Shown: positions 3,595 through 18,149 of the stretch, piece after piece
Position numbering within the stretch: position 1 is the stretch's first letter
How the letters are laid out: every line of letters begins with the position of its first letter
Origin: Herminiimonas arsenicoxydans
Lineage (GTDB): Bacteria > Pseudomonadota > Gammaproteobacteria > Burkholderiales > Burkholderiaceae_D
DNA length: 64,000 nt
Direction of reading: 5' to 3'
Assembly: GCA_000026125.1 (NCBI GenBank)
Contig: CU207211.1
Coordinates: 1,116,001 to 1,180,000 of the forward strand
Notes under the pieces: generated by a model
What the model was told of the DNA's origin: nothing
The model's database searches: none
Seen by the model: the letters and a program-made list of their open reading frames with translations, nothing else
Translations under genes and position numbers: made by a program

Positions 3595-4149
3595 GTGTCG
3601 ACAGAGAATCCAGTCAAGGCGCCAGCCAAGAGAGCCGTAACAAAAAAAACCGTACCAGCAAAGACCGGCGAGGCAGTAACTGCCAAGCGGGCAACCCCTG
3701 TGACGAAGTCGAGCTTTGTAGCTAAAACGAACCCTCGAAAAGAGGTTGATGCAGTCGTGAAAAAAACCGCTACAGAAACTGTAACTGCCAGGAAACCGGT
3801 GACCAAACCGGCAAGCAAACCTGTAGCCAAGCCGGTAACCAAAGCTGTAACCAAGCCTGTATCGGCGAAGGTCGACAAGCAGCCGCAGGTTGCCAAGCCA
3901 GCGGCGCCGTCAAAAGAGAAGGTCAAGAAAGCCAAACTCGTTCGAGACAGCTTCACGATGCCGGAAACCGAATACCAGGTATTGAACGATGTCAAAAAGG
4001 CTTTTTTGAAATCCGGGGTATCGGTCAAGAAAAGCGAGTTGTTGCGTGCCGGAGTAGCCCTGATCAAGGCGATGAAATTGGATCAATTGAATGCAGTGAT
4101 TTCTGCATTGCCGCCGCTAAAGGCTGGACGTCCGAAGAAAGACAAGTAA
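3595..4149 (+). CDS. Lys/Ala/Pro-rich basic protein, histone H1-like N-terminal part with a C-terminal AT-hook-like tail
   Basis: No enzymatic function is recognised. The 184 residues split in two. Residues 1 to about 118 are low-complexity, rich in Lys, Ala, Pro, Thr and Val, with degenerate repeats such as KPVTKPASKPVAKPVTK, like the H1-type tails of bacterial nucleoid proteins. Residues about 120-178 look folded and helical (MPETEYQVLNDVKKAF, then KKSELLRAGVALIKAM), resembling a short DNA-binding helical domain. The chain ends in KAGRPKKDK, an AT-hook-like motif. Start GTG 3595 follows AAGGAG. The gene is a single unit between its own promoter and a strong terminator. A DNA- or polyanion-binding nucleoid protein is an inference from composition; polyphosphate binding would also fit so basic a tail. 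Confidence 0.7.
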   Translation: MSTENPVKAPAKRAVTKKTVPAKTGEAVTAKRATPVTKSSFVAKTNPRKEVDAVVKKTATETVTARKPVTKPASKPVAKPVTKAVTKPVSAKVDKQPQVAKPAAPSKEKVKKAKLVRDSFTMPETEYQVLNDVKKAFLKSGVSVKKSELLRAGVALIKAMKLDQLNAVISALPPLKAGRPKKDK

Positions 4150-4190
4150 CAGCGCAGTTGGCGCAGCTTGCCCGGGCTGCGTTACCACTA

Positions 4191-4220
4191 AAAGCCGATG
4201 CAGATGCATCGGCTTTTTTA
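4191..4220 (+). terminator. Rho-independent terminator
   Basis: AAAGCCGATGCA (4191-4202) pairs with TGCATCGGCTTT (4205-4216) and runs into a T-rich tail. It closes the basic-protein gene and insulates the Pho-box promoter just downstream. Confidence 0.9.
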
Positions 4221-4241: not shown

Positions 4242-4274
4242 GTGTCATGAAAATGACATGCTCCTGTCATTGTG
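4242..4274 (+). promoter_or_regulatory. Putative PhoB-binding site (three 11-bp Pho-box repeats) upstream of olsB-plcP-agt
   Basis: Three consecutive 11-bp units each hold a copy of the Pho-box core: GTGTCATGAAA (4242-4252), ATGACATGCTC (4253-4263) and CTGTCATTGTG (4264-4274). The consensus unit is CTGTCATAWAW. The first and third units match TGTCAT exactly and the middle one has one mismatch. The array ends 51 bp before the olsB ATG, a normal promoter distance. PhoB is encoded at 16150 in this window. PhoB control is inferred from the repeat pattern. Confidence 0.75.
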
Positions 4275-4325
4275 CTGAAGCAATCGCCCGTTACGCTTGG
4301 CTCGTCACAATACAAAGGACGACAC

Positions 4326-5129
4326 ATGCGATTACTGAATGCTTCTGCCGATACCACCTCCGCTTCCCCCCGACTGACCTTGAGCATGGCCAGCACGCCG
4401 GCTGAAGTGCGGGAAGTACAGCGTTTGCGTTACAAGGTCTTTATCGAAGGCATGGGTTTGACCGCACTGGCAAACGACGAACGCCTCGACAAGGATGAAT
4501 ACGATACGTATTGCGATCACCTGATCGTACGCGACTCTACTACGCTCAAAGTGGTGGGAACCTACCGCGTGCTCAGCCCGCAAGCCGCGCGCAAGGCGGG
4601 CGGTTTTTACTCCGAGCAGGAGTTCGATCTCGGCCGGCTCGATCATCTCCGGGACCGCATTGCCGAAGCAGGCCGCGCCTGCATCCATCCAAAATATCGC
4701 AGCGGCGCAGTCATCATGATGTTGTGGGCCGGGATCGCCGCTTTCATGCAAAAGGAAAAGTGCACATATCTGATCGGTTGCGCCAGCATCAGTCTGGCAG
4801 ATGGCGGCCACAATGCCGCCGCGCTGTATCACGCGATCGCCGAGACCAATCTCGCGCCTGCTGAATATCGCGTCAAACCGCACTTGCCGTTCCCGGTTGC
4901 AGTGCGCGAAGCCGGTCACAATCCGGCGATCCCGCCGCTGATAAGAGGCTACCTGCGTAGCGGCGCGTGGATATGCGGTGAACCGGCATGGGACCCTGAT
5001 TTTCACAGCGCCGATCTGTTCATGATGCTGCCGCTGGCCAAGCTCGATAGCCGCTATGCGCGTCACTATTTAAAGGACGGCGTCAAAGACGGTGCGAAAG
5101 ACGACAGCAAAGAGGACGCGCCAGCATGA
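4326..5129 (+). CDS. olsB: L-ornithine N-alpha-acyltransferase (OlsB-like)
   Basis: OlsB transfers a 3-hydroxyacyl chain from acyl carrier protein to the alpha-amino group of ornithine, giving lyso-ornithine lipid, a phosphorus-free membrane lipid precursor. The 267-residue protein has the GNAT/autoinducer-synthase-like fold of the family: VQRLRYKVFIEGMG near residue 30, VGTYRVL near 80, the acceptor region GRACIHPKYRSG near 120, and a C-terminal block GYLRSGAWICGEPAWDPDF typical of OlsB. ATG 4326 is chosen because AAAGGA lies at 4314-4319; an upstream in-frame start at 4272 would overlap the Pho-box repeats. It overlaps plcP by 4 bp (ATGA). The second enzyme, OlsA (O-acyltransferase), is not in the window. 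Database labels such as hemolysin-like are inherited and misleading. Confidence 0.85.
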   Translation: MRLLNASADTTSASPRLTLSMASTPAEVREVQRLRYKVFIEGMGLTALANDERLDKDEYDTYCDHLIVRDSTTLKVVGTYRVLSPQAARKAGGFYSEQEFDLGRLDHLRDRIAEAGRACIHPKYRSGAVIMMLWAGIAAFMQKEKCTYLIGCASISLADGGHNAAALYHAIAETNLAPAEYRVKPHLPFPVAVREAGHNPAIPPLIRGYLRSGAWICGEPAWDPDFHSADLFMMLPLAKLDSRYARHYLKDGVKDGAKDDSKEDAPA

Positions 5130-5998
5130 AGCCGCGCGACCAGTTCCTAACGCCCGATTTTATCGATGCCGCTACTGGTAATAAATTTGATCCGCCGCGC
5201 GCTCCTGTTCGATTCCGCACGATCTGGATTTCAGACGTGCACCTGGGAACGACCGGCTGCCAGGCACAACGCCTGCTGGAATTCCTGCGCAAGACCGAAT
5301 CGGAAACCCTGTATCTGGTCGGCGACATCATAGATGGCTGGCAATTGAAGCGGCGCTGGTACTGGCAGCAGGCGCATAACGATGTGGTGCAAATCGTATT
5401 GAAGAAAGCGAAGAAGGGCACGGAAGTCATTTTCATTCCGGGCAACCACGACGAAGCGATACGCGAATTCATCGATCTGGATTTCGGCGGTATTCGGGTG
5501 CGCGACGAGCTGGTGCATACCACTGCGCAAGGCAAGCGCATGCTGGTGCTGCACGGCGACCGTTTTGATGGCGTGATCGCCTGTGCCAAGTGGCTGGCTT
5601 ACGTCGGTGACAATCTTTATTCGCTCATACTCAAATTCAACCAGTGGTTCAACGTCTGGCGCGCCCGCGCCGGTTTGCCCTATTGGTCATTGTCGCAATA
5701 CCTGAAGCTGAAGGTAAAAAATGCAGTCAGCTATATCTCTTCCTTTGAAAACGCGCTGGCGGCAGAAGCCAGGCAGCGTGGCCTGGATGGCGTCATCTGC
5801 GGTCACATCCACAAACCGGAAATTCGCGACATCGACGGCATCCTGTATTGCAATGACGGCGACTGGGTGGAAAGTCTGTCGGCGCTGGTCGAAGAGCCGT
5901 GTGGTGAATTGCGGCTCGTCACCTGGCAGGAAATCGTGATGTCGCACACATCAGCCAAACATGAAAAGGTAAACGACTTATGCGTATCGCCATCGTAA
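5126..5998 (+). CDS. plcP: Calcineurin-like metallophosphoesterase, probable phospholipase C (PlcP-like)
   Basis: This protein is predicted to cut the phosphate headgroup from membrane phospholipids, leaving diacylglycerol for glycolipid synthesis and freeing phosphate. The 290 residues show the full metal-binding set of the superfamily: ISDVHLG (about residues 35-41), VGDIIDGW (about 66-73), GNHDE (about 108-112), VLHGDRFD (about 139-146) and CGHIHKPE (about 225-232). The SDVHLGT-G-CQA start and the Trp-rich GW--KRRWYW segment are typical of PlcP. Such proteins are often labelled LpxH (UDP-2,3-diacylglucosamine hydrolase), but the position between olsB and a glycolipid glycosyltransferase behind a Pho box favours PlcP. 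It overlaps olsB by 4 bp and agt by 19 bp, so the three are translationally coupled. Confidence 0.78.
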   Translation: MKPRDQFLTPDFIDAATGNKFDPPRAPVRFRTIWISDVHLGTTGCQAQRLLEFLRKTESETLYLVGDIIDGWQLKRRWYWQQAHNDVVQIVLKKAKKGTEVIFIPGNHDEAIREFIDLDFGGIRVRDELVHTTAQGKRMLVLHGDRFDGVIACAKWLAYVGDNLYSLILKFNQWFNVWRARAGLPYWSLSQYLKLKVKNAVSYISSFENALAAEARQRGLDGVICGHIHKPEIRDIDGILYCNDGDWVESLSALVEEPCGELRLVTWQEIVMSHTSAKHEKVNDLCVSPS

Positions 5999-7017
5999 CG
6001 GACGCCTGGACACCGCAAGTCAACGGTGTCGTCAATACATTGAAGGCCACACGCAAGCAATTGCGTGCCAGCGGTCATGCGGTTCTGATGGTAACGCCGG
6101 AGCATATACGCAGTTATTCCTGCCCGACCTATCCGGAAATTCGCCTGGCCTACAAGCCCTACGGCAAGGTGGCGTCCGCGCTGGACGATTTCGATGCGGA
6201 TTGCATACACATTGCAACGGAAGGGCCGATGGGGCTGGCGGCGCGGCGTTACTGCCTCAATCGCGGGCTGGATTTCACGACCGCCTATCACACCCGTTTC
6301 CCCGAATATTTGCGTGCCCGCTTTCATCTGCCGCTGGCAGTGACGTATCGCTGGCTCAAATGGTTTCATGGCCCGGCCAAGGCGGTGATGGTGCCGACGC
6401 CGCGCATGCAGGATGCGCTGGAGCAGAGCGGTTTCAGGAATGTGGTGCAATGGAGTCGTGGTGTGGACACCGCTTATTTCAAGCCGGGCCCGCGCGAGGA
6501 AGCATCGCTGCAGCGTCCGCTTTATCTGTATGTGGGCCGCATCGCCGTCGAGAAAAATATCGAGGCTTTCCTGCAAATGGACTTGCCCGGTGCCAAATGG
6601 GTGATAGGCGATGGCCCGATGCGCGACGAGCTGGAGAAAAAATATCCGGACGTGCGCTTTCTCGGCGCCAAGCCGCATGAAGCACTGCCGGCATATTACA
6701 ACTGCGCCGATGTATTCGTGTTCCCGAGTCGTACCGACACCTTCGGCCTGGTGCTGGTCGAAGCGATGGCGTGTGGCGTGCCGGTGGCGGCCTATCCGGT
6801 CGAAGGGCCGATCGATGTGGTGGCGCATGGCAAAGCCGGCGTCCTCGATACGGATTTGACGCGTGCCTGTTTCGAAGCCTTGAAATTGAAGCGCTCGGTG
6901 GTGCGGGAGCATGCGCTGTGTTATTCGTGGGATGCGGCGACTCAGCAGTTCCTGCAACATTTGCATCCGGTACGCAAGAGCAATGGGCTGGCTGTGGTGC
7001 GATCCTCGCTGGCATAG
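5980..7017 (+). CDS. agt: Glycosyltransferase family 4, probable diacylglycerol glycosyltransferase (Agt-like)
   Basis: This GT-B enzyme probably adds a sugar to diacylglycerol at the membrane to make a phosphorus-free glycolipid. The 345 residues begin with MRIAIVTDAWTPQVNGV, the acceptor-domain start shared by glycolipid transferases of this type. A nucleotide-sugar half carries YVGRIAVEKNIEAFL (about residues 181-195), WVIGDGP, and the EX7E-like segment PSRTDTFGLVLVEAMACG (about 248-265). It overlaps plcP by 19 bp. The plcP-agt pairing is known from lipid-remodelling bacteria, where Agt makes glucosyl or glucuronosyl diacylglycerol. The sugar transferred here cannot be read from the sequence. 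Confidence 0.78.
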   Translation: MRIAIVTDAWTPQVNGVVNTLKATRKQLRASGHAVLMVTPEHIRSYSCPTYPEIRLAYKPYGKVASALDDFDADCIHIATEGPMGLAARRYCLNRGLDFTTAYHTRFPEYLRARFHLPLAVTYRWLKWFHGPAKAVMVPTPRMQDALEQSGFRNVVQWSRGVDTAYFKPGPREEASLQRPLYLYVGRIAVEKNIEAFLQMDLPGAKWVIGDGPMRDELEKKYPDVRFLGAKPHEALPAYYNCADVFVFPSRTDTFGLVLVEAMACGVPVAAYPVEGPIDVVAHGKAGVLDTDLTRACFEALKLKRSVVREHALCYSWDAATQQFLQHLHPVRKSNGLAVVRSSLA

Positions 7018-7123: not shown

Positions 7124-8173
7124 TTAGCGGCTGAATGTTGCTTGCAGATCGGCCTGGTTGTTGACGCCGTTTTGCAGCGCCAGCATCAGCAGGATGCGTG
7201 CCTTGGCTGCCTTCAGATCGTCGGCCATGACGGCGCCAGCTTCAAAAGAAGTCTTGCCGCCGCCTTCAAAACCGTAGCTAGGCATGACACGGCCATTGTG
7301 TACGCGGGTGGTGACGACGACCGGCACTTTTTTGGCAACCGCATATTTCACGGCATCCAGCATGGCGACGTTCATATTGCCCATGCCCAAAGCCTCGACC
7401 ACGATACCCTTGACGCCACGATCGACCGCATTGCGCACGGCTATGCCGTTGGCACCGCCATACATGGCGAAAATCTCTACTTCAGGCATCTTGTCGGTGC
7501 GAATCGGAATGTATTGACGACGCACTGGCGTGGAAGCGTAAATCACGCGGTCCGGATAGACTTCGCCCAGAAAACCGAAATCGCCTGACTTGAATGTTTC
7601 GACGTTGGCAGTGTGCGTTTTGGTGACCGAACGCGCTGCATTGATCTGGTTGTTCATGGCCAGCAACACGCCTTTGTCCTTGGATTGCGTATCGACGGCG
7701 ATGCGTACCGCGTTCAGCAGATTGCGCGGACCGTCAAAGTCGGAAACCGACGCATTGCGCTGGGCGCCGATCAGGATCACCGGCTTGCTGGATTTCACCG
7801 TCAAATCCAGCCAGTATGCGGTTTCTTCCAGCGTGTCCGTACCGTGCGAGACGATGGCGCCGGCCACTTCCGGGCGATCCAGTGCAGTTTGCACGGCCTT
7901 GGTCAATGCGACCCAGCGCGTCGGGTCCATGTAATCCGATGGCACATTGGACAGATTGTTGACTTCGATGCTCGCGTATTTCGCTACATCCGGCACGGTG
8001 GCCAGCAGATCATCGCCGGAGATGGCAGGTACCGGCGCATTTTTCACCGGGTCGATCTTCATCGCGATCGTGCCGCCGGTTGCAATGAATTGCACGACCG
8101 GTTTGCTTTGTGCGAAGGCAGGCAAGGTTGCTGCTAATAACAGGCTGAGTACGGTCTTTTTTAGTTTCGTCAT
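7124..8173 (-). CDS. ansB: Type II (periplasmic) L-asparaginase
   Basis: The enzyme hydrolyses L-asparagine to aspartate and ammonia, probably in the periplasm. The 349 residues start with a signal peptide (basic MTKLKK, a Leu/Ala-rich core, cleavage near AFAQSK). The two catalytic threonine motifs are present: ATGGTIAM near residue 32 and SHGTDTLEET near residue 109. MYGGANG and the C-terminal TTRVHNGRV region are also typical. AAGGTAG precedes the ATG by about 8 bp. It is a single gene converging on agt. The signal peptide supports type II rather than cytoplasmic type I; some family members also use glutamine. Confidence 0.92.
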   Translation of the reverse strand: MTKLKKTVLSLLLAATLPAFAQSKPVVQFIATGGTIAMKIDPVKNAPVPAISGDDLLATVPDVAKYASIEVNNLSNVPSDYMDPTRWVALTKAVQTALDRPEVAGAIVSHGTDTLEETAYWLDLTVKSSKPVILIGAQRNASVSDFDGPRNLLNAVRIAVDTQSKDKGVLLAMNNQINAARSVTKTHTANVETFKSGDFGFLGEVYPDRVIYASTPVRRQYIPIRTDKMPEVEIFAMYGGANGIAVRNAVDRGVKGIVVEALGMGNMNVAMLDAVKYAVAKKVPVVVTTRVHNGRVMPSYGFEGGGKTSFEAGAVMADDLKAAKARILLMLALQNGVNNQADLQATFSR

Positions 8174-8634: not shown

Positions 8635-8754
8635 CAAGCCATGAGGCGGCGGAGATGGCAGGACGGCCAAGTGGAGTTTTATCTGGCAAGGCAGAAAGCG
8701 CTGCACGCTGAGGACTGCGTGTGGCGCTTGATGGATGCCGCGCCTGCTTGCGGA

Positions 8755-9225
8755 TTATTTGCTGACTTGCTTGCTGAGCAAATCAGGCGCCATGACGGCG
8801 CGCACAAAATTACCGGCAATTTCATCCTGCTCGCGTTGCACTATCCACCAGACATTGCCTTTGCGGATCGTCCAGTCTTGTGCGGTGCCGGTAACGAGCA
8901 GCGCGGCCAGTTGTCCGAGCGTCGGCTGATGGCCGACGATCAGTACCGGTTCGCGACTGTCCGGCCAGTGTGCTGCGGTCAGAATTTTTTCGGCGGTCGA
9001 GCCAGGCGCCAGATCGTCCACAATCCTGAACTTGCGCCCCAGGGCTTCCGCGGTCTGTATCGTGCGGGTGGCGGGACTGACCAGGATTTTGCAGCTGTTG
9101 GGCAGATTATGATCCAGCCATTCAGCCATTTTCCATGCCTGCTTGTGGCCTTTTGCCGTCAATGCGCGGCCTTCATCGGGTTCGCCCACTTCCGCTTCTG
9201 CATGCCGCCACAAGATCAGTTCCAT
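8755..9225 (-). CDS. sixA: Phosphohistidine phosphatase SixA-like (histidine phosphatase superfamily)
   Basis: A 156-residue single-domain histidine phosphatase. The catalytic RHG-type motif is LWRHAEAE at residues 5-12, with the phosphorylated histidine at 8. SPATRTIQTAE (about residues 50-60) supplies the second arginine, and LIVGHQPTLGQLA (about 94-106) the second histidine. SixA removes phosphate from His residues of phosphotransfer proteins in E. coli; the substrate here is not evident. It starts 4 bp after the ppk stop codon and so forms an operon with ppk, which puts it under the same phosphate-responsive promoter. Confidence 0.88.
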   Translation of the reverse strand: MELILWRHAEAEVGEPDEGRALTAKGHKQAWKMAEWLDHNLPNSCKILVSPATRTIQTAEALGRKFRIVDDLAPGSTAEKILTAAHWPDSREPVLIVGHQPTLGQLAALLVTGTAQDWTIRKGNVWWIVQREQDEIAGNFVRAVMAPDLLSKQVSK

Positions 9226-9229
9226 GCTG

Positions 9230-11347
9230 TTACTCCATCGGGTTGCCCAGAACCTGCATTAAATATTGTTGCGCGCTGAAGGCGCCTGCCTTGCCGCGTG
9301 GTTTACGTTTTTGATAGACGCCATTGGAATCCAGTTCCCAGGTATTCGTATTATCTTTGAGGTAGGGATTCAAACCTTCCGCGATTACCCGTTTTTTCAG
9401 GCCGGGATCGAGAATCGGAAAAGCGACTTCAATCCGGCGGAACAGGTTGCGATTCATCCAGTCCGCGCTGGACAGATAAATGTCATGCGCCAGATCGTTG
9501 CGGAAATAATAGATACGAGTGTGTTCGAGAAAACGTCCGACGATGGAGCGCACGCGGATGTTTTCCGACAAACCCGGCACGCCGGGTCGCAAAGCGCAGG
9601 CGCCGCGCACGATCAGATCTATCTTGACGCCATCCGCCGACGCCGCATACAAGGCGCGGATCACCGATTCATCCAGCAGCGCGTTCATCTTGGCGATGAT
9701 GCGGCCGGGTCGTCCTGCCTTCGCTATCTTCGCTTCGTTGCGGATGGCGCGGATGAATTCCTTTTGCAAGGCAAACGGCGCCAGCCACAGATGCGTGAGC
9801 GTTTTCGGTTTGGTCAGGCTGGTCAGGTGGATGAAGATTTCATTGACTTCGGTGGCTAGCGCCGGATTCGCCGTCAGCAGCCCGAAATCGGTATAAAACT
9901 TGGTGGTGCTCGGATGATAATTGCCGGTGCCCAGATGGGCGTAATAACGCAATGCGCCTTCTTCGCGACGAATCACCAACGCCAGCTTTGCATGCGTTTT
10001 CAGTCCGACTACGCCGTACACGACTTGTGCGCCGGCGCGTTCTAGCCGGTCTGCCCAGTTGATATTGGCTTCTTCATCGAACCGCGCCATCAATTCGACA
10101 ATCACGGTGACTTCCTTGCCGCGTTGCGCGGCGATGATCAGCGATTCCATCAAGTCGGAGTTCATGCCGGTGCGATAAATGGTTTGCTTGATCGCCACCA
10201 CGTCCGGGTCCTGTGCAGCCGAGCGTATGAACTCAAGCACCGGCTGGAACGATTGGAACGGATGGTGCAGCAGCACATCGTGTTTGCCGATGGCGCCGAA
10301 CAGATCGACATTCGCCAGCTTGGGCGGATAGGTGGGCGAGTAGGGTGGAAAGCGCAGTTCGGGCTGGTTGACGTGCTCGATCAATTCCGACAGGCGAACC
10401 ATGTTGACCGGGCCATCCACTGCATACAGCCGGTTCTTGTCGATGGAAAATTGTTCCAGCAAAAATTGCGACAGACGCGGCGGACAGTTCTTGGCAACTT
10501 CCAGCCGTACGGCAACGCCAAAATTGCGGCTTTGCAGTTCTCCCTGCAAGGCCTGGCGCAGATTTTTCACTTCTTCTTCATCGACCCACAAATCGCTGTT
10601 GCGCGTGACCCGGAATTGCGAATACGCCAGTACGTCGCGTCCGGTGAACAAGTCCTTGATGTGTGCATGAATAATCGAGGACAGCAGACAGAAGGAAACG
10701 CCGTTCTGCGACAGTTCGGCTGGCAGCTGGATGACGCGCGGCAGTACGCGTGGCGCTTTCAGGATCGCAATCGCGGTGCCGCGGCCGAAGGCGTCCTTGC
10801 CGGACAGCTCGACGATGAAATTCAGACTCTTGTTGACGACCTGTGGGAAAGGATGGGCCGGATCGAGCCCGATCGGCGTCAGCAGCGGCCTTACTTCGCG
10901 ATCGAAATATGCTTTGACCCAGGCCCGTTGCGCTTCATTGCGATCTTGATCGCGTAATAGATGGATGCCCTGTTGCGCCAGTTGCGGCAACACTTCTTCA
11001 TTCAGTACGCGATACTGGCGTTCGACGATCTTGTGGCATTCTGCGCCTGCAACGGCCAGCGCGGCAGACAGAGTGGGTGGCTCGATGACTTCGCCATCCA
11101 GATGGTTGTTGGCCAGCAGGCTGGCGATGCGTACTTCAAACAGTTCATCCAGATTGTTGCTGACGATACATAAATACTTCAAGCGCTCCAGCAAGGGGAC
11201 GGCTGGATTTTCAGCTTGCGCCAGAACGCGGCGATTGAACGCCAACTGGGATAATTCTCGGTTCAGATAGATTGCACTTTGCGGAAGAGGAGATGCAGAA
11301 GCGCTTTCTGGTATGGCTTTCTTGTGCATTTTCTTGACTTTTGCCAT
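9230..11347 (-). CDS. ppk: Polyphosphate kinase 1
   Basis: Ppk1 reversibly polymerises the gamma-phosphate of ATP into polyphosphate. The protein has about 705 residues from ATG 11347. It shows the N-terminal helical domain (YLNRELSQLAFNRRVL), the central domain, and the two phospholipase-D-like halves with LKTHAKLALVIRRE (autophosphorylated histidine region) and YAHLGTGNYHPSTTKFYTDF, followed by IRVRSIVGRFLEHTRIYYF. An in-frame start at 11476 would read through the Pho box and promoter, so it is rejected. ATG 11329 is also possible, because the predicted transcript start leaves only a very short leader before 11347. It is divergent from pstS, shares its regulatory spacer and is followed by sixA after 4 bp. 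Confidence 0.95.
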   Translation of the reverse strand: MAKVKKMHKKAIPESASASPLPQSAIYLNRELSQLAFNRRVLAQAENPAVPLLERLKYLCIVSNNLDELFEVRIASLLANNHLDGEVIEPPTLSAALAVAGAECHKIVERQYRVLNEEVLPQLAQQGIHLLRDQDRNEAQRAWVKAYFDREVRPLLTPIGLDPAHPFPQVVNKSLNFIVELSGKDAFGRGTAIAILKAPRVLPRVIQLPAELSQNGVSFCLLSSIIHAHIKDLFTGRDVLAYSQFRVTRNSDLWVDEEEVKNLRQALQGELQSRNFGVAVRLEVAKNCPPRLSQFLLEQFSIDKNRLYAVDGPVNMVRLSELIEHVNQPELRFPPYSPTYPPKLANVDLFGAIGKHDVLLHHPFQSFQPVLEFIRSAAQDPDVVAIKQTIYRTGMNSDLMESLIIAAQRGKEVTVIVELMARFDEEANINWADRLERAGAQVVYGVVGLKTHAKLALVIRREEGALRYYAHLGTGNYHPSTTKFYTDFGLLTANPALATEVNEIFIHLTSLTKPKTLTHLWLAPFALQKEFIRAIRNEAKIAKAGRPGRIIAKMNALLDESVIRALYAASADGVKIDLIVRGACALRPGVPGLSENIRVRSIVGRFLEHTRIYYFRNDLAHDIYLSSADWMNRNLFRRIEVAFPILDPGLKKRVIAEGLNPYLKDNTNTWELDSNGVYQKRKPRGKAGAFSAQQYLMQVLGNPME

Positions 11348-11373
11348 GGCTAATCCCGCAGAGTGTAGTGGCT

Positions 11374-11395
11374 CATTATGACAACTTAATGACAG
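11374..11395 (-). promoter_or_regulatory. Pho box of ppk-sixA
   Basis: Read on the minus strand the sequence is CTGTCATTAAG followed by TTGTCATAATG, two 11-bp units that match the PhoB consensus closely. A -10-like TACACT lies at 11368-11363 on the same strand, the distance expected when the Pho box replaces the -35 element. It points to PhoB control of polyphosphate synthesis. Confidence 0.82.
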
Positions 11396-11436
11396 CCATT
11401 TTTGTGCAAAATCAAGTTTGTGACATGATTTCTGGG

Positions 11437-11458
11437 AAGTCATAAAGCTGTCATAATT
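11437..11458 (+). promoter_or_regulatory. Pho box of the pst operon
   Basis: AAGTCATAAAG (11437-11447) is followed by CTGTCATAATT (11448-11458); the second unit is nearly perfect. It lies 49 bp before the pstS ATG and faces the opposite way from the ppk Pho box 41 bp away. AAGGAG at 11496-11502 is the pstS ribosome site. Confidence 0.82.
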
Positions 11459-11507
11459 GTTCGCTAAAGTTCGCACTGTCTTATTTAGATAACCCTAAGG
11501 AGCAGAT

Positions 11508-16149: not shown

Positions 16150-16839
16150 ATGGCTGCTGAAAAACCCACGATACTGATAGTTGAAGATGAACCGCCCATT
16201 ATTGAACTGGTGACGTTCACATTGAAGGGTGCCGGCTGGAACGTCACCGCCGTGCAAACCGCCGGCGAAGCCTGGGATTTCATCCAGCAGCGCCTGCCGC
16301 AACTGATCCTGCTGGACTGGATGCTGCCGGATCAAAGCGGCTTGCGCCTGCTGTCACGCATTCGTGCGGACCGGCAGTTCAACGAGTTGCCTATCATCAT
16401 GCTGACCGCGAAAAGCATGGAAGAAGACAAGATCGCCGGCCTGGACAACGGTGCGGACGATTACGTGACCAAGCCGTTTTCACCGCGCGAACTGACCGCG
16501 CGCATCAATGCACTGTTGCGCCGCAAGACGCCCGAACATGCGCAAACCCTGATGACGGCCGGCAGTATCAGCCTCGATCCGATCAGCTGCAGCGTCAGCA
16601 TGAACGATGAAAAAATCGATATCGGCCATGCCGAATTCAAGTTGCTGAAATTTTTTCTGGCGCATCCCGATCGCGTATTTTCGCGCAGCCAGTTGCTCGA
16701 CAAGGTATGGGGCGATCACGTCGTGATCGAAGAACGCACGGTCGATGTGCATGTACTGCGGCTGCGCAAGGCATTGAAGGAAGCGGAACACTTGATCAAA
16801 ACGGTGCGTAGTGTAGGCTACATGCTCTCGGAAAAATAA
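16150..16839 (+). CDS. phoB: Phosphate regulon response regulator PhoB
   Basis: PhoB binds Pho boxes and activates phosphate-starvation genes when phosphorylated by PhoR. The 229 residues have a receiver domain with the acidic pair in VEDEPPI, the phospho-acceptor Asp in LLDWMLPDQSG (about residue 55) and Lys in VTKPFSPREL. An OmpR-type winged helix follows, with recognition-helix region EERTVDVHVLRLRKAL. It lies between phoU and phoR, 17 bp from phoR. Its likely targets visible here are the boxes at 4242, 11374 and 11437. Confidence 0.96.
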   Translation: MAAEKPTILIVEDEPPIIELVTFTLKGAGWNVTAVQTAGEAWDFIQQRLPQLILLDWMLPDQSGLRLLSRIRADRQFNELPIIMLTAKSMEEDKIAGLDNGADDYVTKPFSPRELTARINALLRRKTPEHAQTLMTAGSISLDPISCSVSMNDEKIDIGHAEFKLLKFFLAHPDRVFSRSQLLDKVWGDHVVIEERTVDVHVLRLRKALKEAEHLIKTVRSVGYMLSEK

Positions 16840-16856: not shown

Positions 16857-18149
16857 ATGAATCCTCAGCTGTTGTTCTGGATACCCGCAGCCCTGCGCCT
16901 ATCCCTTGTTCTCATTGCCTCCGGCCTGACCTGGTATTTCTTCGGGCCTGTCATCGGCCTGGCGGTGGCGATCGTCTGTCTGCTTGCACTGATCGTCATC
17001 CAGCTCAACTACCTCTATCAGTTAAGCGGCTGGCTGGAGCATCCCGATAGCGAAAAGCTGCCCGATGGCTGGGGCGCATGGACAGATATTTTTTCGCGTC
17101 TGTATCGGATGCGGCGCGACGACGAGCGTAATCGCAGCGAGCTGACTGAATGGCTGGCCCGTTTCCGGCAGGCGATGAGCCTGCTGCCCGATGGCGTGGT
17201 TATCATGGATGACGTACTGTTCCTTGAATGGTGCAATCCGGCAGCGGAACGGCATCTGGGTCTGAACAACGGTCGCGATAAAGGCATGCGCGTCACCAAC
17301 CTGATCCGTAGTCCGGATTTCATCGATTACATTATTCTCGGCCATTACGAACAGCCGCTGACGCTCAGTCTGAAAGATCGCAAGCTGATCGTGCAGATCA
17401 TCCCCTTTGAAAATCGCCGCCAGATTCTGGTCACGCACGATGCGACGGAGTCCGAGCGTATCGAAATGATGCGTCGCGACTTTATCGCCAATGCCTCGCA
17501 CGAGTTGCGCACACCGCTGACCGTCATCAACGGCTTCCTGGAAATCGCCCAGGCCCAGCCTGATCTGGATCAAGCCATACGCATGTCGCATCTGAAACTG
17601 ATGATAGAGCAGGGCCAGCGCATGCAGAATCTGGTGGAGGATATGCTGACCTTGACCAGGCTGGAATCGATCGACTATCCGCTACGCCCCGAACACGTCA
17701 ACATCCACAATCTGCTGGAACAAATCCGGCAGGAAGCCGAAGCCCTGTCCGGCGGCCGCCACGAGATTTCCCTGACGATAGACGGTCCGGATATTGAAGG
17801 CAGCGCCGATGAATTGCGCAGCGCCTTCAGTAATCTGGTTTCCAATGCCGTGCGGTATACGCCGATACACGGTCGTATCGACATCAAATGGCAAAATACT
17901 GCAGCCGGGCCGCAGTTCTCGGTAAAAGACACTGGCATAGGGATGCGTCCCGAGCATCTTGTGCGTTTGACCGAACGTTTTTACCGCGTGGACAAAAGCC
18001 GTTCACGGGAAACCCAGGGTACCGGTCTGGGCCTGGCGATCGTCAAGCATGTGTTGCTGCGACACGGAGCAGTGCTGGCAATTGAGTCGCAGCCGGATGT
18101 CGGCAGTACTTTCAGCGTGCAATTCAAGACAGAAAACTTGCCGGCATAG
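16857..18149 (+). CDS. phoR: Phosphate regulon sensor histidine kinase PhoR
   Basis: This is the membrane sensor kinase that phosphorylates PhoB during phosphate limitation. The 430 residues contain two N-terminal membrane helices (about residues 8-60) with almost no periplasmic loop, a charged linker, a PAS domain (DGVVIMDDVLFLEWCNPAAE, about 115-135), the H-box NASHELRTPL (about 213-222), the N-box SNLVSNAVRYTP, the G1 box KDTGIGM and the G2 box GTGLGLAIVKHV. Lack of a sensory periplasmic domain fits PhoR, which senses through Pst and PhoU. Two pieces of a related gene are found as a decayed remnant at about 23270-23420. Confidence 0.95.
   Translation: MNPQLLFWIPAALRLSLVLIASGLTWYFFGPVIGLAVAIVCLLALIVIQLNYLYQLSGWLEHPDSEKLPDGWGAWTDIFSRLYRMRRDDERNRSELTEWLARFRQAMSLLPDGVVIMDDVLFLEWCNPAAERHLGLNNGRDKGMRVTNLIRSPDFIDYIILGHYEQPLTLSLKDRKLIVQIIPFENRRQILVTHDATESERIEMMRRDFIANASHELRTPLTVINGFLEIAQAQPDLDQAIRMSHLKLMIEQGQRMQNLVEDMLTLTRLESIDYPLRPEHVNIHNLLEQIRQEAEALSGGRHEISLTIDGPDIEGSADELRSAFSNLVSNAVRYTPIHGRIDIKWQNTAAGPQFSVKDTGIGMRPEHLVRLTERFYRVDKSRSRETQGTGLGLAIVKHVLLRHGAVLAIESQPDVGSTFSVQFKTENLPA

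Follow-up and report, generated by a model that had tools for sequence, protein, structure and literature searches.

The olsB-plcP-agt gene cluster of Herminiimonas arsenicoxydans lies at positions 4326-7017 of a 64,000-nucleotide stretch of DNA, called the window here (positions 1,116,001-1,180,000 of the single 3,424,307-base chromosome; all coordinates refer to the window). It brings together genes for ornithine-lipid and glycolipid remodelling, which the accessible parts of the literature mostly treat as separate branches of the phosphate (Pho) response. As far as the available text of the papers cited here goes, several described systems share parts of this cluster. In Pseudomonas aeruginosa, plcP-agt1 (PA3219-PA3218; an agt2 is also known) likewise consists of plcP followed by a GT4 glycosyltransferase gene and carries a Pho box (PMC8528852). 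Yet, olsBA forms a separate operon there (PMC9804370), whereas in H. arsenicoxydans olsB heads plcP-agt and no olsA adjoins. Sinorhizobium meliloti and Agrobacterium have the PlcP, OlsB, and Agt enzymes as well, and replace phospholipid by phosphorus-free lipids under PhoB control, but their genes are dispersed, with olsB of A. tumefaciens being atu0344 and plcP atu1649 (PMC3972451). A betaproteobacterial olsB with a predicted Pho box is known from Burkholderia sensu lato, although the main text of that paper, as available, uses the word phospholipase zero times and makes no mention of plcP (PMC7814305). Marine plcP neighbourhoods of types 1-6 place plcP beside lipid-synthesis genes (btaBA, agt, and other glycosyltransferases) and carry Pho boxes, but olsB has no occurrence in the available main text (PMC4796936). 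In a methanotroph, a plcP-agt cluster is needed for the glycolipid, and ornithine lipid is made too under low phosphate, yet the locus tags of OlsA and OlsB are distant and outside that cluster (PMC9239053). PlcP and OlsAB are both PHO-dependent in P. putida BIRD-1 (PMC5082522). Finally, phosphate control in Acinetobacter acts on olsB and not on olsA (PMC11828411), resembling H. arsenicoxydans, where the OlsA candidate lacks a strong Pho site.

The accessible sources already describe Pho boxes before a plcP-agt pair and before olsB, as well as a single organism in which PlcP and OlsAB both depend on PHO. Both routes and their Pho control are known there from separate loci; what seems new is their union in one conserved operon, with an exchangeable glycosyltransferase, while the enzymes are known. 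Among the titles and abstract openings listed from the open-access literature, to which most subscription papers do not belong, none was recognised as describing an olsB-plcP operon. Gene content, overlaps, homology, the promoter site, and its conservation point to a PhoB-activated olsB-plcP-agt operon that would switch on two phosphorus-free lipid routes together (probability about 0.86), with PhoB binding, a single transcript, translational coupling, substrates, and lipid products as its predicted elements.

The three genes are all on the forward strand. The first, olsB (ATG start at 4326, stop at 5129), encodes a putative ornithine N-acyltransferase of the GNAT type (PF13444), followed by plcP (5126-5998) for a predicted metallophosphoesterase-type phospholipase C (PF00149) and agt (5980-7017) for a predicted GT4 diacylglycerol glycosyltransferase (PF00534/PF13439). 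The overlaps are 4 bp between olsB and plcP and 19 bp between plcP and agt, and family, homology, gene-order, and regulatory-site evidence agree with an earlier note on this DNA that had proposed three overlapping genes, olsB-plcP-agt, under a Pho box. A GTG start for olsB at 4272, as called by the open reading frame (ORF) finder, is unlikely because it sits beside the Pho site.

This Pho site comprises three half-sites, TGTCAT-TGACAT-TGTCAT (4243-4270, forward strand), detected by pattern searches and conserved in relatives. The half-sites start at 4243, 4254, and 4265, a spacing of exactly 11 bp and in phase, and the end of the site is 55 bp upstream of the olsB ATG. When the whole 3.42-Mb genome was scanned with a generic three-unit pattern (three identical TGTCAT units, at most 3 mismatches), nine matches were obtained, two of them mutually overlapping, while the reversed pattern, serving as a whole-genome control, gave none. 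The site at olsB is the single best match of the genome (1 mismatch), and the second best (2 mismatches) is located ~60 bp upstream of a PstS-family gene (258 bits, cut-off 206.6). Only these 1- and 2-mismatch sites are used here, since a rough count predicts a few 3-mismatch sites by chance; inspection of the latter by eye, rather than by family search, recognised no phosphate gene beside them, and one overlaps the PstS-family site. Within the window, a three-unit pattern with the middle unit as seen, which derives from the olsB site itself, matched once at up to 3 mismatches against a shuffle mean of 0.08 (8 of 100 shuffles had at least one match). A two-unit Pho pattern was rejected as proof of a Pho site because its 8 matches in the window are no more than chance would give (6.1 ± 2.7 in shuffles, 27 of 100 of which reached at least 8). 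Reading the site as an inverted repeat for another regulator, TGTCAT-GAAA-ATGACA, is disfavoured, since TGTCATnAAACnGACAT predominates in relatives and the A needed to complete the palindrome varies. The tandem 11-bp half-sites in the olsB promoter thus mark the cluster, at the level of sequence, as a predicted member of the phosphate regulon.

The site recurs in relatives, as examined in 48 non-duplicate olsB-first clusters with at least 150 bp upstream, of which 200 bp were searched. A Pho site scoring at least 14/18 is present in 35 of these clusters, and in 34 it lies 54-73 bp upstream of the aligned start of the protein; in the 35th, L192, which falls outside the PlcP clade described below, the site is at 114 bp and probably spurious. 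Among plcP-first clusters, 15 of 80 carry a site of this quality, including none of the 37 plcP-agt-dagK loci. The reversed pattern reached 14/18 in none of 128 upstream regions (13 in six), and of 640 windows drawn at random from these loci, 7 reached it, some of which may overlap real sites. Aligning the 35 boxed relatives and the window on the box (36 promoters, with L192 aligning no further than the box) gave the consensus TGTCATnAAACnGACATnnAnCTGTCAT, then TGAAGTAATC, then TTAnnCT. In H. arsenicoxydans, the conserved segment beyond the box spans 4276-4297 on the forward strand, with TGAAGyAAT at 4276-4284 and TTAnnCT at 4291-4297. The former is probably a degenerate fourth in-phase half-site, making two PhoB dimer sites in all, and the latter possibly a -10 element. 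The regulatory region is therefore probably longer than 4242-4274, the stretch named in the earlier note for PhoB binding.

The same gene order is found well beyond this genome. In a survey of 116 genomes of the family, OlsB was detected in 85 (E ≤ 1e-40), PlcP in 60 (1e-30), and Agt in 36 (1e-50), and at least 21 (the window and loci L057-L076) have the three genes side by side in the order olsB-plcP-agt. Across 250 genomes of the order, OlsB was found in 187 (1e-6), Agt in 110 (1e-40), and a protein of the PlcP or LpxH class in 175 (1e-3; among the matches listed); the 60 stretches fetched were picked by match positions and are non-random. The same order is present in Herbaspirillum rhizosphaerae, Herbaspirillum sp. 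CF444, and Collimonas sp. OK307, among the best 80 loci of a scan of named genomes, and PlcP-Agt remodelling would extend to Oxalobacteraceae such as Herminiimonas, Herbaspirillum, and Collimonas. A PlcP tree of 134 rows (140 loci minus two without PlcP and eight duplicates, plus the window, two references, and LpxH) was built with a quick method using the Shimodaira-Hasegawa-like approximate likelihood ratio test (SH-aLRT) and no bootstrap, and its reference branches are flagged as long. The window is placed inside a clade of 55 rows with an SH-aLRT of 100, in which olsB adjoins plcP in 47 (same strand, within 900 bp). The overlap of 19 bp between plcP and agt recurs in 16 of 24 pairs. Unlike H. 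arsenicoxydans, the Burkholderia, Paraburkholderia, Caballeronia, and Cupriavidus loci examined have plcP-agt-dagK, with no olsB within the fetched flanks. Other lineages outside the clade show plcP-agt-dagK-hisP-olsB, plcP-agt-olsB, plcP-olsB, or olsB-plcP, the dagK and hisP assignments being Pfam-tested in L100 and L102. The olsB label changes at least 13 times on the PlcP tree, and the olsB-plcP linkage has likely been assembled repeatedly in Burkholderiales; repeated assembly is no more than likely because gains and losses look alike in this count and the support for several branches is poor. In L097-L105, plcP-agt-dagK is followed by a histidine phosphatase gene, with olsB closely behind in 7 of the 9 loci, and the diacylglycerol kinase could recycle the PlcP product. 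In L106 (genome G250), agt lies directly behind olsB, and that genome has no PlcP match at E ≤ 1e-30. On a Microvirga plasmid (L210, an alphaproteobacterium), olsB and a partial match to plcP lie within ~300 bp on opposite strands, apparently in convergent orientation.

The middle gene, already taken for PlcP-type in the earlier note, encodes a protein with 53% identity to the PlcP-type protein of P. aeruginosa, 50% to that of S. meliloti, and 24% to the LpxH of its own genome. Both references are presumably the characterised PlcPs, judging from organism and neighbouring genes; the gene of the P. aeruginosa protein adjoins a glycosyltransferase gene, and this pair is, from its neighbours, presumably PA3219-PA3218. 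The calcineurin-type metal motifs D37xH39, GD67, GNHDE, HGD, and GHIH are invariant in 10 aligned PlcPs, and the LpxH of the genome has GNRD at the position of GNHDE. That the gene instead encodes an LpxH-type lipid A enzyme (UDP-2,3-diacylglucosamine diphosphatase), with the cluster concerned with lipopolysaccharide, is very improbable. While public records annotate relatives under this name, and the best solved relatives by sequence are LpxH proteins with weak E-values (1.5e-6 at best), the protein stays below both LpxH cut-offs (48/134 and 41.5/190 bits), and a separate gene of the genome passes both (294/134 and 268/190 bits). Identities to PlcP also fall into two classes, at least 44% and at most 31%, fragments aside, among the matches listed from the 250 genomes, with two matches of the family search intermediate at 40-41%. 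In the tree, the protein is placed apart from LpxH and beside the PlcP-type proteins of S. meliloti and P. aeruginosa, these three branches being long and flagged. Searches of solved structures yielded nothing beyond the fold class, and the fold is judged unable to separate PlcP from LpxH. PlcP-like proteins may often be misnamed LpxH, as suggested by 24 of 32 plasmid-collection records so named, with 30-61% identity to this PlcP. The N-acyltransferase raises a comparable question, as it could form, in place of ornithine lipid, a different aminolipid (based on glycine, glutamine, or lysine) or a signal of the acyl-amino-acid kind. The GNAT family is common to enzymes for other aminolipids, the OlsB models score under their cut-offs, and olsB of Acinetobacter yields both ornithine and lysine lipids according to the accessible text (PMC11828411). 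However, the protein scores 161 and 154 bits with the OlsB models against 24 bits with GlsB and 39 bits with the exosortase acyltransferase, so that the OlsB models are its best family match, and another product is unlikely. It passes PF13444 (125 bits, cut-off 22.4) and is 32% identical to the OlsB-type protein of S. meliloti. It is filed as OlsB-like, with the same reaction predicted, despite scores under the cut-offs because both NCBIfam models, by their names, represent other groups.

It could also be argued that control is divided, with the Pho site driving olsB alone and plcP-agt being expressed mainly from an internal promoter, as many Burkholderiales loci have a plcP-agt unit without adjacent olsB. 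Yet, olsB runs directly into plcP here, and 42 of 50 olsB-plcP pairs have a start codon that would give exactly the 4-bp overlap, the in-frame start nearest to it having been chosen. Moreover, in the region from -350 to +120 bp around the plcP start of L057-L076 (the window not included), the best three-unit matches score 8-12/18 and reversed ones 9-12. Divided control is unlikely. A number of observations nevertheless weigh against the PhoB-activated three-gene operon. A sigma-70 scan found no promoter on the forward strand; PhoB promoters often lack a -35 element. The three-gene set is not obligatory, since 8 of the 55 clade loci have no adjacent olsB and 14 no recognised glycosyltransferase behind plcP. 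No site of at least 14/18 is present within 200 bp in 13 of the 48 olsB-first clusters, and it is missing from a whole subclade, in all six loci (L068-L071 and the Herbaspirillum loci L126 and L128); upstream of L068-L071, there is only a two-unit match of 9-10/12, against 7-8 for the reversed pattern. The other clusters below 14/18 are L080, L112, and L113, together with four that have a weaker site (12/18, at 55-56 bp), namely L084, L087, L146, and L148. OlsB is below the NCBIfam equivalog cut-offs (161/320 and 154/350 bits), and the OlsA candidate reaches 130 bits with a cut-off of 300. The genome yielded three PF01553 proteins, and the candidate is the one whose best family is OlsA; its gene is unlinked to the operon and sits immediately behind pyrC, a place with none of the nine three-unit Pho matches.

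In the proposed PhoB-activated operon, low phosphate would lead the sensor kinase PhoR (16857-18149, forward strand; TIGR02966, 394.7 bits, cut-off 334.2) to phosphorylate PhoB, the likely activator (16150-16839, forward strand; TIGR02154, 296.8 bits, cut-off 296.2). PhoB would then bind the tandem half-sites at 4243-4270 and drive one olsB-plcP-agt transcript, with the overlapping genes probably translationally coupled. OlsB is predicted to acylate ornithine to lyso-ornithine lipid, and ornithine lipid would be completed by the OlsA-type enzyme, whose gene lies apart, behind pyrC, and shows no visible Pho control. PlcP may cut membrane phospholipids to diacylglycerol and a phosphoalcohol, whose phosphate is recoverable, and Agt would add a sugar, glucose and/or glucuronate, to the diacylglycerol.

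The glycosyltransferase slot varies among relatives. Agt is 50% identical to the product of the P. aeruginosa glycosyltransferase gene following plcP and has GT4 domains, and its nearest named relative is that of Herminiimonas sp. NPDC097707 (95% identity). According to the accessible text, Agt1 of P. aeruginosa makes monoglucosyldiacylglycerol, and Agt1 and Agt2 use different sugar donors (PMC8528852). Behind plcP, the 55-row clade has agt in 24 loci, an MGDG-synthase-type gene in 17, and neither in 14. The Undibacterium and Glaciimonas loci examined have olsB-plcP with no glycosyltransferase gene following. In L078, L079, L084, L087, L092, L093, L095, and relatives, a GT28-type protein of the MGDG-synthase family (PF06925) replaces Agt, while L072, one of the 24 agt loci, has an MGDG-type gene 375 bp beyond agt. 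Seven MGDG-type proteins were compared with PF06925 and all exceed its cut-off, the remaining ten resting on tblastn similarity. It could be speculated that a modular operon operates family-wide, with one PhoB-driven transcript delivering aminolipid and glycolipid in fixed proportion and a swappable terminal glycosyltransferase (GT4 Agt, GT28-type MGDG synthase, or rarely both) setting the sugar lipid, olsB and plcP having been linked more than once in Burkholderiales; the odds for and against this wider proposal are about even. Behind the MGDG-type gene, a conserved hydrophobic protein of ~160 residues, probably in the membrane, is encoded (2222-2695 on the reverse strand of L087, 4077-4580 on the forward strand of L093, and relatives), with no Pfam or NCBIfam match.

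With a conserved joint operon, it can be tested if cells require the two lipids together, to balance charge or curvature, or if one of them suffices. In H. arsenicoxydans, pstSb mRNA is up 455-fold after 8 hours of arsenite, and the accessible text of this arsenic transcriptome paper makes no statement on olsB, plcP, or agt (PMC3022917). As a speculation, phosphate sparing may bear on competition with arsenate in this organism.

The surroundings of the operon hold further phosphate genes, and the Pst/Pho/Ppk neighbourhood that had been noted is indeed there, with ppk, pstS, pstC, pstA, phoB, and phoR downstream of agt. On the reverse strand, an asparaginase-type gene (7124-8173) lies 3' of agt, followed by sixA (8758-9225; TIGR00249, 75.8 bits, cut-off 74.5) and ppk (9233-11347), whose ORF as called (9233-11476) is too long, the ATG at 11347 being the likelier start. 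The genes pstS, pstC, and pstA follow from 11508. A perfect two-unit Pho site (11378-11394, reverse strand) is located ~30 bp upstream of the likely ppk start, and a one-mismatch two-unit Pho-like site (11438-11454) stands before pstS, divergent from the ppk site. Since ppk is present in 27 of the 54 other clade loci, whose fetched flanks are of unequal length, the phosphate neighbourhood is partly conserved. Upstream of the operon, a simple pattern search placed a terminator-like hairpin at 4190-4217 (forward strand), at the end of the preceding gene, which would separate that gene from the olsB promoter; such hairpins are not above shuffles (3 in the region against 3.4) and weak alone. A ppx/gppA-type gene (1-1458) occupies the left edge of the window. 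The ORF at 8641-9279 (forward strand) opposite sixA is probably spurious. Finally, positions 3595-4149 (forward strand) encode a Lys/Ala/Pro-rich repeat protein with no family match, and a similar stretch is found in 25 of the 54 other clade loci.

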